NCBI GenBank assembly: GCA_023251075.1
Contig: JAHEZM010000015.1
Coordinates: forward strand, 1 to 64,000
Length of the DNA: 64,000 nt
DNA from: Flavobacteriales bacterium
GTDB taxonomy: Bacteria > Bacteroidota > Bacteroidia > Flavobacteriales_C > GCA-002722245
Direction of reading: 5' to 3'
The notes under the pieces: model-generated
Databases searched by the model: none
What the model saw: only the letters and a program-made list of their open reading frames with translations
Told to the model about the DNA's origin: nothing
Translations under genes and position numbers: made by a program
Shown: positions 24,597 to 45,484 of the stretch, piece after piece
Numbering within the stretch: the first letter of the stretch is position 1
How the letters are laid out: every line of letters begins with the position of its first letter

Positions 24597-25526
24597 ATGG
24601 AAAATATTTTCGCAATCGCAGCAATAGTAGTCGTTTTACTAACTTTATTTTTATCATTCATTACTGTTCAACAAGGAACCGTTGCTGTTATTACTGTCTT
24701 CGGAAAGTACAGAAGAATTATGACCGCAGGGTTGAATTTCAAAATTCCCTTTATTGAAACTGTTTTCAAAAGAGTATCGGTACAAAACCGCTCCGTAGAG
24801 TTAGAATTTCAGGCCACTACTATAGATCAGGCAAATGTATATTTCAAAGCGATGTTGTTGTATGCAGTGTTCAATCCGAATGAAGAAACCATCAAAAATG
24901 TAGCTTTCAAATTCGTTGACGATAGAAGTTTAATGCAAGCCTTGGTGAGAACTATCGAAGGTTCTATCAGAGGTTTTGTAGCAACCAAAAAACAAGCGGA
25001 AGTTCTTTCTTTAAGAAACGAAATTGTACACGATGTAAAAGAGCAAATCGACAATACTTTGGAAGGTTGGGGATATCACCTCATCGACTTACAATTGAAC
25101 GACATTACTTTCGACGATGCGATTATGAAATCGATGGCGCAGGTGGTAGCTTCTAACAACTTAAAAGCTGCGGCGGAAAATGAAGGTCAGGCGTTATTGA
25201 TCACCAAAACAAAAGCTGCTGAAGCAGAAGGTAACGCAATTAAAATTTCTGCGGAGGCGGAGAAGTTAGCAGCACAATTACGCGGACAAGGAGTGGCGTT
25301 ATTCCGTCAGGAAGTAGCTAAAGGTATGACCGAGGCGGCAAAAGAAATGCAACAAGCCAACTTAGATACTTCTGTAATTCTGTTTTCTATGTGGACTGAG
25401 GCCATCAAACAATTCTCTGAAAATGGTGAAAGCAACGTTATTTTCTTGGATGGTTCTACTGACAATATGCAGAAGACTATGCAACAAATGATGGCGATGA
25501 ACACGTTGATGGCGCCGAAGAAGTAA
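24597..25526 (+). CDS. SPFH (band 7/stomatin-prohibitin) domain protein
   Basis: A 309-residue protein with an N-terminal membrane helix (IFAIAAIVVVLLTLFLSFITV), the SPFH domain at about 25-200 (QQGTVAVITVFGKYRRIMTAGLN, QNRSVELEFQATTIDQ), and a C-terminal coiled coil rich in Ala/Glu (ITKTKAAEAEGNAIKISAEAEKLAAQ). It forms membrane-bound oligomers thought to organise microdomains or protect membrane proteases. The Met/Gln-rich tail (MQKTMQQMMAMNTLM) is notable. It is 26 bases after the ABC gene on the same strand, possibly co-transcribed. Confidence 0.92.
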   Translation: MENIFAIAAIVVVLLTLFLSFITVQQGTVAVITVFGKYRRIMTAGLNFKIPFIETVFKRVSVQNRSVELEFQATTIDQANVYFKAMLLYAVFNPNEETIKNVAFKFVDDRSLMQALVRTIEGSIRGFVATKKQAEVLSLRNEIVHDVKEQIDNTLEGWGYHLIDLQLNDITFDDAIMKSMAQVVASNNLKAAAENEGQALLITKTKAAEAEGNAIKISAEAEKLAAQLRGQGVALFRQEVAKGMTEAAKEMQQANLDTSVILFSMWTEAIKQFSENGESNVIFLDGSTDNMQKTMQQMMAMNTLMAPKK

Positions 25527-25540
25527 AAGATCACCTAGTA

Positions 25541-25783
25541 CGTCCTTGCGAGATTTTAGTACCCAAAAATGAAGCAATCTTATAGTATTTTTAATTTCAA
25601 TTGCCGTCGGTTTTAACCGACGGATTTGATTGTTTTCATAATAAGGCTTTAGCCGAACAATATTTTTTGGCTAAAGCCCTGTATGTGTTCTTTTTTCCGT
25701 CGGTTAAAACCGACGGCAATTTACTGGAAGTTTTTGATGAATGAGATTGCTTCATTTTTGGGTACTAAAATCTCGCAAGGACG
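25541..25783. repeat. 243-bp nested palindromic element, copy 1
   Basis: Perfect 39-bp terminal inverted repeats at 25541-25579 and 25745-25783 (start CGTCCTTGCGAGATTTTAGT). Inside are two copies of the 20-bp palindrome CCGTCGGTT-TT/AA-AACCGACGG at 25604-25623 and 25697-25716, and a central hairpin with arms GGCTTTAGCC (25645-25654) and GGCTAAAGCC (25669-25678). It encodes no credible protein. It lies between convergent genes (SPFH and radA). A second copy in inverted orientation is at 43174-43415. The outer motif resembles the widespread TTGCGAG...GAAGCAATC repeat of this phylum; the whole looks like a non-autonomous REP or MITE unit. Confidence 0.9.
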
Positions 25784-25792
25784 AGCTGGGGA

Positions 25793-27160
25793 CTACTCCG
25801 CATTCCTAAACAAATGCTGCACTAAATCCTGTGCCTTTCCAACTCTCACAATCTTAATATTCTTTCCTTTCAAAGAATCTTCATCATTGTACTTAGAAAG
25901 AAAAATAGTTTTGAATCCCATTTTCTCTGCTTCTTTGATGCGCGCGCCGACATTGCGCACCGAGCGAATTTCTCCTGATAACCCTATCTCTCCTGCGAAG
26001 CAATAAGTAGATGGAATAGGAATATCAACTCCTGAAGAAAGAATCGCTGCAACAATGGAAAGATCTATTCCTGTGTCTTCGGGTTTGATTCCTCCCGTGA
26101 TATTTAAGAAAACGTCTTTGAGTTGAATTTTAAATCCGCATCTTTTTTCTAATACTGCCAACAGCATGTTTAAACGACGTGTGTCAAAACCTGTTGCAGA
26201 GCGCTGCGGAGTTCCATAAGCCGCTGTACTTACCAAAGCCTGGGTTTCTATCAATAACGGACGAATCCCCTCCATAGAAGCAGAAATAGCAATGCCGCTT
26301 AAGTTCTCTTCATTTTGTGAAAGCAAAATAGATGATGGATTTTCTACCACTTTCAATCCGTATTCTTCCATTTGGTAAATCCCCATTTCATTCGATGGTC
26401 CGAAACGGTTTTTAGAACTTCTGATGATTCTGTAAATATGATTTCTATCGCCTTCGAAAGTAAGCACCACATCTACCATGTGTTCTAATACTTTCGGACC
26501 GGCAATTTGTCCGTCTTTAGTGATGTGCCCTATTAAGAAAGTTGGAATATTTCTTCTTTTCGCAATCAAAGTAATATCGTTCGCACATTCTCTAATCTGA
26601 CTCACCGTACCTGGCGCAGAATCTAACTTTGAGGTTTGTAAGGTTTGAATAGAATCGATAATCAATAACTCGGGTTCTTGCTTTTGAATATGCTCTAATA
26701 TTCTCTCCACATTGGTTTCGGGAAGAATATAAATGTGTTCATTTACTTTTTGTAGTCGGTCGGCACGTGATTTAATTTGTTGCGGACTTTCCTCTCCTGA
26801 TACATACAATACTTTTTTACCTGGAAATTGAAGTGCAATTTGCAGCATCAATGTTGATTTGCCAATGCCAGGTTCTCCGGTAAAAAGAATCACAGAGCCA
26901 GAAACCAAACCATCCCCCAACACGCGGTTGAGCTCGGTATCTTTTAAAATAATTCTTTCTTTACTGAGTGGTTGTACTTCATGCAAGAGCGTAGGCTCTA
27001 AGGCTACAATGCCCGGAATAGAAGTGTTTTGTATTTTATTGCTGCTGGTAATTTCTTCCTGGTAAGTGTTCCATTCTCCGCAGGCGGTACATCTTCCCAA
27101 CCATTTGGCAGATTGGTTTCCGCAAGAGGTACAAACAAATACCGACTTGAGTTTAGCCAT
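25793..27160 (-). CDS. radA: DNA repair protein RadA
   Basis: A 455-residue RadA/Sms protein: an N-terminal C4 zinc finger (Cys10, Cys13, Cys24, Cys27), a RecA-like ATPase with Walker A GEPGIGKST at 95-103 and Walker B LLIIDSIQT, the RadA-specific KNRFGPSNEMG motif, and a C-terminal Lon-like domain (GGIKPEDTGIDLSIVAAILSS). It drives branch migration of recombination intermediates in the cytoplasm. It is the last gene of a minus-strand cluster beginning with panC and starts 3 bases after the upstream lipoprotein stop. Confidence 0.97.
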   Translation of the reverse strand: MAKLKSVFVCTSCGNQSAKWLGRCTACGEWNTYQEEITSSNKIQNTSIPGIVALEPTLLHEVQPLSKERIILKDTELNRVLGDGLVSGSVILFTGEPGIGKSTLMLQIALQFPGKKVLYVSGEESPQQIKSRADRLQKVNEHIYILPETNVERILEHIQKQEPELLIIDSIQTLQTSKLDSAPGTVSQIRECANDITLIAKRRNIPTFLIGHITKDGQIAGPKVLEHMVDVVLTFEGDRNHIYRIIRSSKNRFGPSNEMGIYQMEEYGLKVVENPSSILLSQNEENLSGIAISASMEGIRPLLIETQALVSTAAYGTPQRSATGFDTRRLNMLLAVLEKRCGFKIQLKDVFLNITGGIKPEDTGIDLSIVAAILSSGVDIPIPSTYCFAGEIGLSGEIRSVRNVGARIKEAEKMGFKTIFLSKYNDEDSLKGKNIKIVRVGKAQDLVQHLFRNAE

Positions 27161-42201: not shown

Positions 42202-43149
42202 ATGAAACACTTTTTTTCTATTCAGGATGTAGATAATCTTTCTGCTGCGGTGGCTGAGGCCATCGATTTGAAAAAAAATATTGCTAATTTTTCTACGCTT
42301 GGAAAAGGCAAAACCATTGGTTTGATCTTTTTCAATTCCAGTTTAAGAACACGTTTGAGCACACAAAAAGCGGCGATCAATTTAGGCATGAATGTAATCA
42401 GCATGAACGTTGGTTCTGATGGCTGGAAATTAGAAATGGAAAATGGCGCAGTGATGAATGGAGATGCTGCAGAACACGTAAAAGACGCAGCTCGCGTGAT
42501 GGGTGCTTATTGCGATATTATTGCGGTTCGTTCATTTGCAGTGTTGAAAGACAGAGAGAAAGATTACTCAGAAGAAGTATTGAAAAGCTTCATGAAATAT
42601 GCGAGTGTGCCTATCATTAATTTGGAGTCATCGACCTTACATCCTTTACAATCTTTTGCTGATTTAATAACCATCGAAGAGCACAAAAAAGTGGCTCGTC
42701 CGAAAGTAGTTTTAACCTGGGCACCTCACCCCAAAGCATTGCCGCAAGCGGTGCCAAATAGCTTTGTACAATGGATGAAAAATGCTGATGTGGATTTCGT
42801 GGTGACTAACCCCGAAGGCTACGATTTAGCACCCGAATTTATGGACGGAGTGAAGTTGGAGCATAATCAAAATGAAGCTTTTGAAGGGGCCGATTTTATC
42901 TACGCAAAAAACTGGTCGTCTTATACTTCATACGGAGAAATACTTTCCACTGATCCAGCTTGGACAGTCTCTTCCGATAAAATGGCATTGACCAATAACG
43001 CCAAGTTTATGCACTGTCTCCCTGTTCGCAGAAATGTGGTGGTGAATGACGATGTTATCGACTCTGAAAATTCTATCATCATCGCACAAGCCGCTAATAG
43101 AGTGACTTCTGCGCAGTTGGTGATTAAGAGGATTTTGGAGGGGAAGTAA
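42202..43149 (+). CDS. argF': N-acetyl- or N-succinyl-ornithine carbamoyltransferase
   Basis: A 315-residue transcarbamylase with the carbamoyl-phosphate motif FFNSSLRTRLST (a variant of the canonical STRT), HPLQSFADL, and the C-terminal HCLPVRRNVVV loop. The FNSSLRTR pattern and MNVGSDGWKLE segment mark the N-acyl-ornithine group used in Bacteroidota arginine synthesis rather than the ordinary ornithine enzyme. I cannot settle acetyl versus succinyl preference from the visible residues. It is in operon with argH. Confidence 0.93.
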   Translation: MKHFFSIQDVDNLSAAVAEAIDLKKNIANFSTLGKGKTIGLIFFNSSLRTRLSTQKAAINLGMNVISMNVGSDGWKLEMENGAVMNGDAAEHVKDAARVMGAYCDIIAVRSFAVLKDREKDYSEEVLKSFMKYASVPIINLESSTLHPLQSFADLITIEEHKKVARPKVVLTWAPHPKALPQAVPNSFVQWMKNADVDFVVTNPEGYDLAPEFMDGVKLEHNQNEAFEGADFIYAKNWSSYTSYGEILSTDPAWTVSSDKMALTNNAKFMHCLPVRRNVVVNDDVIDSENSIIIAQAANRVTSAQLVIKRILEGK

Positions 43150-43173: not shown

Positions 43174-43415
43174 CGTCTTTGCGAGATTTTTGTACCCAAA
43201 AATTAAGCAATCTTATTCATCAAAAACTTCCAGTAAATTGCCGTCGGTTTTAACCGACGGAAAAAAGAACACATACAGGGCTTTAGCCAAAAAAAATTGT
43301 TCGGCTAAAGCCATATTTGAAAACAATCAAATCCGTCGGTTAAAACCGACGGCAATTGAAATTAAAAACACTATAAGATTGATTTGTTTTTGAGTACAAA
43401 AATCTCGCAATGACG
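43174..43415. repeat. 242-bp nested palindromic element, copy 2 (inverted relative to copy 1)
   Basis: The same architecture as the unit at 25541-25783 in reverse orientation: outer arms starting CGTCTTTGCGAGATTTTTGT and ending in a diverged partner, two 20-bp CCGTCGGTT/AACCGACGG palindromes, and a central GGCTTTAGCC/GGCTAAAGCC hairpin. The outer arms have several mismatches here, so this copy is older or less constrained than copy 1. It also lies between convergent genes (argF' and metG). Confidence 0.9.
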
Positions 43416-43438: not shown

Positions 43439-45484
43439 TTACCTCACCCCACCGCCATTATCAATCTCTTTCACAGGAGACACAAATGCTAACTCTCCTT
43501 TACTATTCTCCGCCATCAAAATCATTCCTTGTGATTCAATTCCTTTGATGTTTCTTGGCGCAAGATTTACAAGAATCGTTACTTGTTTGCCAATGATGTC
43601 TTCTGGCTTATAATGCTCTGCGATGCCCGATACAACAGTACGTTGGTCAATTCCTGTATCAATTTTTAGCTTCAACAATTTTGCTGTTTTTGCTACTTTT
43701 TCTGCTTCAATGATGGTGCCTACACGAATATCCATTTTAGAAAATTCGTCGAAAGTAACATTCTCTTTCTGAGGTACAGCAGATGTTTTCGCTTGTTGTG
43801 CTTGTTCGCGCGAAGCTTTTAGTTTTTCTAATTGAGCAGCAATTACATCGTCTTCAATTTTGCTGAAGAGGAGTTGTGCAGGTGCAATGGTAAAGCCATC
43901 CGTGAGTAAAATATCCTTATCTGCTTCGCTCCATTGTGTATTAGAAATACCTAACCATGTTGCCATTTTAGTAGTGGTTTCCGGTAAGAAAGGAAGTCCC
44001 AAAACGCTTATTTTTCCTGCTATTTCCAAAGCAATACGAAGAATGGTTCCCACTCTTTGTGCATTATCTTTTATCTTCCAGGGCTCTGTATCGGCTAAAT
44101 ATTTATTACCCAAATTCGATAGTTTCATCAACTCTGATAAAGCTTCTCTAAAGCGATATTTATCTATACTATCTGAAATTTTTGCGTTGAATTCTTTGGC
44201 TTGTGCTAAAGTGTTTTTATCGATTTCTTCGAGTGTAGAAGGCGCCGGGATTTTACCTTCAAAAAACTTGTGAGTCAATACAAATGCACGATTCACGAAG
44301 TTCCCCAGATTGGCTGCTAACTCATTGTTGTTCTTTGCCTGAAAGTCTTTCCAGGTGAAATCGGCATCTTTTGTTTCGGGCATATTCGAGCACAATGTAT
44401 ATCGTAACACATCTGTTTTATCGGGGAAATCGGCTAAGAATTCATGCAGCCAAACCGCCCAGTTTTGGGAGGTAGAAAACTTCTCTCCTTCTAAATTTAA
44501 AAACTCATTTGCAGGAACATTATCGGGCAAAATATAATCGCCGAACAACTTCAACATTGATGGAAAAATGATGCAGTGAAAAACAATATTGTCTTTACCA
44601 ATGAAGTGAATGAGTTTAGAATTTCCGTCTTTTTTCCAGTAGTCTTCCCACTTGCGAGTTGTATCGTTTGCTAATAATTCTTGAGTGAAAGAGATGTAGC
44701 CAATTGGCGCGTCAAACCAAACGTACAATACTTTTCCTTCGCCCCCTTCTACAGGAACAGGAATTCCCCAATCTAAATCTCTGGTGATAGCGCGTGGTTG
44801 TAAACCACTTTCCAGCCAGCTTTTGCACTGACCGTAAACATTCGTTTTCCAATCTTTGTGTTCTTCTAAAATCCATTGTTTTAACCAAGGCTCGTATTTA
44901 TCGAGAGGCAAGAACCAATGTTTTGTTTTTTTAAGCACAGGTTTATTTCCGCTCAATGCCGACTTAGGATTGATCAAATCGGTTGCATTGAGGGTAGAGC
45001 CACATTTCTCGCATTGGTCGCCGTAGGCTTTCTCGTTTGCGCAATGCGGACAAGTTCCTGTGATGTATCTATCTGCCAAAAATTGGTTGTTGGCTTCGTC
45101 GTAATATTGCTCGGTAACTTGTTCGGTAAAGGCACCTTCACCTTCTAATTTTTTGAATAAATCAGAGGCAGTTTTGTAGTGCTGTTTTGAAGTGGTTTTC
45201 GAAAAAACATCCAAAGTGATTCCCAATTGTTTTAATGAATCACCAATAATTTTGTGGTATTTATCTACTACTTGCTGAGGTGTAACACCTTCGTTTTTTG
45301 CTTTGATAGTGATGGGCACGCCATGTTCATCGGTACCACCAATAAAAACTACATCTTCATTTTTGGCGCGCAGATAACGCACATATATATCGGCTGGAAT
45401 ATACACTCCCGCTACGTGTCCGAGGTGTAAGGGCCCGTTTGCATAAGGCAAAGCCGTAGTAATGGTATAACGTTGTTGAGTCAT
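43439..45484 (-). CDS. metG: Methionine--tRNA ligase
   Basis: A 681-residue class Ia synthetase: HIGH-type motif in [13 protein letters not shown], the zinc knuckle [18 protein letters not shown], the KMSKS equivalent KFSTS, an anticodon-binding helical domain (about 390-540), and a C-terminal EMAPII/Trbp111-like tRNA-binding domain (about 575-681, [20 protein letters not shown]). It charges tRNA-Met. A promoter box ends four bases before the start codon (see 45489-45496). Confidence 0.97.

Follow-up and report, generated by a model that had tools for sequence, protein, structure and literature searches.

A 243-bp palindromic unit in a Flavobacteriales genome, read as one non-autonomous mobile palindrome inside another

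Repetitive extragenic palindromes (REPs) that carry a CGTC tag have been described in several forms, and no dedicated transposase was found for them (Di Nocera et al. 2013, PMC3733652). Among the single-tyrosine (Y1) transposases, TnpAY1 subclass 1.2 has been recorded as being without REPs (Quentin et al. 2018, PMC6006769). In this work we analyzed a palindromic unit of 243 bp that occurs twice in a stretch of 64,000 nucleotides (hereafter, the window) from a Flavobacteriales bacterium (assembly GCA_023251075.1, contig JAHEZM010000015.1, positions 1 to 64,000). We consider it probable that this unit combines two mobile palindromes, neither of them autonomous, with a gene-less element of the subclass 1.2 type inside a dimer of REP-like repeats.

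Anatomy and copies of the 243-bp unit

An earlier note, made from the letters of the window, had described two nested palindromes, and both were located where it had put them (Table 1). The outer arms of copy 1 are perfect, as the note had claimed, over 40 nt instead of the 39 it gave, and they match at 92% over 50 nt when extended. The two 20-nt palindromes and the central hairpin that it had described inside were also found, and copy 2 proved to be an inverted version of the same plan, with 94% identity to copy 1 and diverged outer arms. Both copies lie between convergent genes as proposed, copy 1 between those for an SPFH/Band_7 protein and RadA, and copy 2 between those for N-acetylornithine carbamoyltransferase and MetG. 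The predicted RNA folds reached −145.9 kcal/mol for copy 1 (shuffle mean −49.6) and −119.5 kcal/mol for copy 2 (shuffle mean −47.1), values matched in neither case by any of 200 shuffles. A search of the 64-kb window against Rfam at gathering level returned three tRNAs only.

The unit consists of two layers, an outer head-to-head dimer of a CGTC-tagged REP-like repeat and an inner core of about 123 bp, and not of one element as the note had assumed. The core is built as AATTGCC-stem-GGCTTTAGCC-14 nt-GGCTAAAGCC-stem-GGCAATT, and no GTAG tag was present at its edges as read. Each outer arm follows the layout CGTC-NTTGCGAG-(variable hairpin)-GAAGCAATCT, the inside of which varies by copy: it is a palindrome resembling either TTTTTGTACCCAAAAA or CCGTCAGCCGACGG, or else a shorter stretch. 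Most arms have CGTC followed by A, C or T and then TTGC, and the stem starts with AT in many of them, except in those beginning CGTCC or CGTCT. Like the CGTC REPs, the arms form head-to-head dimers; their unpaired tail is CT or CTC and not the CCA of those repeats.

In the 3.28 Mb of the own genome (45 contigs) there were 18 exact matches of GGCTTTAGCC-N4..34-GGCTAAAGCC, one in each of the loci L001-L018 and none in L019, which has outer arms and a single stem with no core hairpin. The copy search by similarity scored 40 of 85 candidates and may have missed partial copies, and L014 is interrupted by a contig end. Thirteen outer dimers without a core were present among the own-genome stretches read, and the cores of L017 and L018 have no clear outer arms; on these grounds a single mobile unit was rejected. 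The core itself, with 18 copies, is short, dispersed and free of any transposase gene, as is characteristic of a miniature inverted-repeat transposable element (MITE), and in this respect the note, which had seen a unit without a gene, was correct. A gene-carrying element around a hisD-like gene on contig C34 was also considered and rejected, given that each arm pair there is a complete short dimer. Short, unlike-armed outer dimers were recorded at L032 572-653 and 1969-2051, on either side of a gene that resembles hisD by eye, in tandem gene context.

Subclass 1.2 transposase genes and their flanking motif

A PF01797 search of the own genome revealed two Y1 genes, one at C38:3-428 and one on C36. 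The C38 protein contains DDHIH, WQ and YIYNQESHH, which fit the signatures given for TnpAY1 subclass 1.2 (PMC6006769), and its subclass was assigned from these signatures. It scored above the cut-offs of PF01797 and of the IS200/IS605 model NF033573, and below that of the model for REP-associated tyrosine transposases (RAYTs; 34.2 bits vs 80), and the family profile of the transposase matched TnpA of ISHp608 (E 9e-11). The note had said that the unit, if mobile, would need a transposase elsewhere; the Y1 gene to which the core is tied belongs to the IS200-related subclass 1.2 type and is no classical RAYT. The stretch upstream of the C38 gene, which is cut by the contig end, resembles the left end of the core (74% over core positions 57-127), and a right-end-like stretch (86% over core positions 125-182) is located further upstream and not beside the 3' end of the gene.

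Two details of this region (L027, G000:C38) were recorded on the side. The right-end-like stretch at 885-945 directly follows the stop of a gene resembling an ABC-F ATPase (by eye), in the way that such right ends elsewhere come after transposase genes; and at 540-885 the sequence that separates this stretch from the left-end-like one next to the transposase gene is AT-rich with repeated units. The Y1 gene on C36 (L045 1170-1900, G000:C36) is of the subclass 2.6 type and sits inside inverted repeats of its own, unlike both arms and core.

Homologues of the subclass-1.2-type gene were present in 147 of 295 class genomes. Seventy class loci were taken from the top of the homologue list, and hence lean to close homologues; 69 of them were usable, the own, contig-cut gene having dropped out. 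Exact GGCTTTAGCC was found upstream of the gene in 36, GGCTAAAGCC downstream in 29 and both in 22, and inverted matches of at least 10 nt between the two flanks occurred in 44, compared to 2% of shuffles. We also analyzed 80 named loci, the best 80 of 558 confirmed stretches from a contig scan, which include Mucilaginibacter, Pedobacter, Dyadobacter, Chitinophaga and others as well as metagenome-assembled genomes of Ignavibacteria and Acidobacteria. With at most one mismatch, the motif was upstream in 59, downstream in 30 and on both sides in 25, and in 8 of the 30 loci having the downstream motif the stop codon of the gene falls within it. In the pooled set of 150 loci with 146 distinct genes, the density of GGCTTTAGCC or GGCTAAAGCC was 4.18/kb within 130 bp of the gene and 0.218/kb beyond 300 bp, a 19-fold difference; the signature Y---Q--HH was present in 143 of the 146 homologues. 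Many subclass-1.2-type genes of Bacteroidota thus have flanks laid out much like the core, with the Y1 gene standing where the core has its 14 nt. Beside the gene in 15 other Y1 loci of four congeners (G001-G004) and in the C36 locus, the motif was not found.

The short-loop hairpin was present in 24 of the 295 class genomes, with no reversed-control matches in any row shown, and 23 of these 24 also have the gene, compared to 147 of 295 overall (Fisher p 6e-7; the two lists were compared by reading). Among 20 short-loop hairpin loci read, one (G243) adjoins a gene copy, and a perfect stem of at least 7 was present in 14 of their 40 flanks vs 38 of 2000 shuffled ones. Viral contigs gave no exact match to one 23-base stem pattern.

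The letters of GGCTTTAGCC occur in a Haemophilus influenzae REP stem (PMC2817692); our literature search found no account of this motif beside subclass 1.2 genes, with subscription journals mostly outside its reach and absence therefore unproven. The subclass 1.2 gene of G001 sits inside perfect 29-nt inverted repeats beginning TTCACATTGCCGTC. IS200/IS605 elements are not known to have terminal inverted repeats, a description from which the G001 gene departs.

Collectively, these comparisons of sequences support the view that the family is dispersed and that it is tied to genes of the subclass 1.2 type, and our best reading of the core is a miniature, without a gene, of a TnpAY1 subclass-1.2-type element. 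A broader proposal, tentative and somewhat doubtful to us, would make the subclass 1.2 Y1 enzymes the transposases of an element family that extends across the phylum and whose ends have two layers, a variable stem and GGCTTTAGCC; this family would shed MITEs into the loops of other palindromes, so that palindromes stack and stay symmetric.

Table 1. Positions in the window of the two composite copies, their parts and the adjoining genes
Feature	Position	Strand	Remark
Composite element, copy 1	25541..25783	+	outer dimer + inner core
Left arm of outer layer	25541..25583	+	CGTC-tagged REP-like repeat; core-less dimers elsewhere in genome
Right arm of outer layer	25741..25783	-	inverted
Inner core, copy 1	25599..25721	+	AATTGCC...GGCAATT; read as MITE of TnpAY1 subclass 1.2 element
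Left stem palindrome of core, copy 1	25604..25623	.	
Central hairpin, copy 1	25645..25678	.	GGCTTTAGCC-14 nt-GGCTAAAGCC; both motifs flank many transposase genes elsewhere
Right stem palindrome of core, copy 1	25697..25716	.	
Composite element, copy 2	43174..43415	-	inverted
Inner core, copy 2	43236..43357	-	
Central hairpin, copy 2	43279..43312	.	
SPFH/Band_7 protein gene	24597..25526	+	3' end 14 bp before copy 1
radA (sms)	25793..27160	-	converging on copy 1, 9 bp distant
N-acetylornithine carbamoyltransferase gene	42202..43149	+	3' end 24 bp before copy 2
metG	43439..45484	-	converging on copy 2, 23 bp distant

Orthologous sites and the origin of the nesting

The note had proposed looking for empty sites in relatives, and our comparison with G001-G004 covered ten of the 18 core sites. 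Five sites (L002, L005, L006, L010 and L018) were uninformative, with no adjacent flanks in the congeners; at all five informative sites the core was missing in at least one congener, and no orthologous site in a congener was seen to hold it. At the copy 1 site, G002, G003 and G004 keep the gene pair with a short spacer and no core, and in G001 two contig ends show a different palindrome there. No element was present at the L007 site in G001, nor at the L004 site in G002 and G003. At the copy 2 and L017 sites, G001 has the outer dimer without the core. Nesting by insertion is the simplest history, because in G001 a bare outer dimer stands at these two core sites. The note had named as fatal to mobility that only two copies should exist, with no empty sites; the 18 hairpins and the core-less sites contradict this, and its interpretation as a whole is partly supported and largely right.

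G001 contains the gene and also half cores, which adjoin outer arms on C89 and where C117 starts; neither the gene nor the exact hairpin was found in G002-G004. No clear target-site duplication was seen at the sites inspected by eye, and no systematic test was made. By eye, the bare dimer at the copy 2 site of G001 lies within yet another inverted repeat, one of two additional ones in this stretch (L100 2440-3020, G001:C5). Elsewhere in G001, two stretches of other DNA, of 389 and 342 bp, are enclosed by outer arms of 50-53 nt that match at 96%, as if they were cargo (L311 231-725 and L313 258-699).

The two arms of a copy resemble each other, with an identity of 0.903 within 17 like-armed own-genome elements vs 0.817 when the right arms were re-dealt (0/5000), in line with the gene conversion between arms or recent insertion suggested by the note. 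In L007, the core is flipped with respect to the spacers around it. Template switching has been reported to cause both homogenisation of arms and inversion of the spacer (PMC8604942).

In the history that we favor, the core would have kept both ends of a Y1 transposase element of the subclass 1.2 type and lost the gene, and would sit in the spacer of the outer dimer. Like IS200/IS605 and TnpA-REP enzymes, the transposase may recognise its stem palindromes in single-stranded form; it may then excise the core and rejoin it at a single-stranded target, e.g., the loop of another palindrome. Afterwards, the composite would have spread largely as one block, and template switching at replication could keep the arms of a copy matched and could flip the inside. 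Copies may be tolerated, or perhaps favored by selection, between the ends of convergent genes; at such places the large hairpin could stop transcription from either side, and a terminator or cruciform role fits this position.

Several observations weigh against this history. Most composites share the dimer-core junctions, and therefore few independent insertions would have occurred. Six dimers of the own genome whose arms are unlike (identity 0.49-0.67), absent from the 17-element test, do not fit the arm-matching pattern, and adding them drops the signal to 0.819 vs 0.769 (2/5000). Cores were judged absent from the congeners by an exact pattern and by searches in which only part of the candidates were scored, and a precise loss of the core in G001 is possible at both bare-dimer sites. 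On the side of the enzyme, the C38 gene runs off its contig, with its 3' end and any adjoining right end unseen, and the right-end-like stretch there is on the upstream side and follows the stop of a different gene. Across the phylum, 50 of the 80 named loci are without the downstream motif and 25 of them have inverted flank matches of at least 10 nt (chance 2.25%); homologues below about 43% identity mostly carry other palindromes, and the G001 gene is without the exact motif. G273 has the hairpin without the gene, 124 of the 147 gene-bearing genomes are without the exact short-loop hairpin, and the 14 hairpin flanks with a perfect stem leave several hairpins with none. The unlike-armed dimers and the contig-cut transposase gene slightly lower our confidence.

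The strongest rival is a host module for two-way termination, selected between convergent genes and spread by recombination with no transposase, which we regard as possible but rather less than probable. Among 17 core copies scored (L014 was left out), 13 were convergent and 4 tandem, compared to 6 convergent among 48 adjacent gene pairs of the window by hand count (binomial p 3e-9), and L019 is likewise in a convergent setting. These contexts were scored on mechanical open reading frame (ORF) calls, with three right-hand ORFs of just 78 aa, and the four tandem calls include L004 and L012, where an ORF overlaps the element. The strong predicted folds of both window copies, the gene ends only 9-24 bp from them and the different palindrome at the copy 1 site of G001 would also be expected of such a module. 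However, three congeners do with a short spacer at that site, the similar layout around transposase genes across the phylum is left unexplained, and 14 core-less dimers were less often convergent (4 convergent, 9 tandem, 1 unscored; p 0.025 for cores vs these dimers). Termination and mobility are compatible, and both could hold.

That the outer dimer is the mover and the core its cargo, on which a subclass 1.2 transposase no longer acts, seems unlikely. The junction sequences common to composites and the other DNA enclosed by the long outer arms of G001 speak in its favor, but CGTC repeats have no known transposase (PMC3733652), the cores of L017 and L018 exist without clear outer arms, and among 16 Y1 loci of G001-G004 a full arm start was near the gene in only one (L153), at a distance of about 160 bp. 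Movement of the core by another enzyme, such as the Y1 transposase on C36, is very improbable: although this gene has an open frame of 181 aa and passes the REP_Tyr_transpos model, it was rejected as the mover, its own repeats being different and its surrounding 3.5-kb stretch containing no outer-arm tag or core motif. Nesting without insertion, by template switching that extended the core palindrome outward into new arms, can draw on a process known at inverted repeats (PMC8604942) and on its two marks seen here (matched arms and the inverted inside of L007), but is the least probable and already disfavoured, with core-less dimers at 13 own-genome places, in congeners without the gene and, bare, at two orthologous sites in G001.

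Comparison with described systems

If the insertion history is correct, the orthologous sites show how a nested palindrome can arise, and the copies offer natural cases of long hairpins with matched arms or an inverted inside. The closest case of nesting is that of GTAG-15 dimers in long palindromes of A. variabilis (PMC3733652), where two kinds of palindrome also occur, one nested in the other. In that species the REP dimer is nested inside, whereas here the REP-like dimer forms the outside; REP-less target palindromes were not found in A. variabilis, whereas bare outer dimers were seen here. TIRtrons and their TIRYT enzymes (PMC3733652) likewise have a tyrosine transposase inside inverted repeats, and repeats of their ends are also dispersed; 20 of the 26 TIRYTs described belong to subclass 2.1 and their repeats mostly carry GGGGWSAS, in contrast to the subclass 1.2 type and GGCTTTAGCC of the present family. 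With REPINs and their RAYT (PMC3116915) the core shares short paired palindromes, a non-autonomous nature and a linked Y1 enzyme, but it has no GTAG tag and its candidate enzyme stays below the RAYT cut-off.

The outer arms have in common with CGTC-tagged REPs (PMC3733652) the tag, the AT opening of the stem, the head-to-head dimers and the lack of a dedicated transposase. They differ in the tail, CT/CTC instead of CCA, in a stem interior that differs wholesale between copies, and in that the dimer hosts another element. The mover of these repeats was left open in 2013 (PMC3733652); as seen here, they host another element and may bracket cargo. Finally, the C38 gene and its homologues share with TnpAY1 subclass 1.2 (PMC6006769) the signatures DH[IV]H, WQ and Y---Q--HH, the occurrence in Bacteroidetes, the low copy number and a length of about 148 aa. 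What this family would add to that subclass, listed without REP, is inverted end structures beside many genes and a gene-less derivative, and with them a candidate substrate and a concrete sequence test for the transposase.
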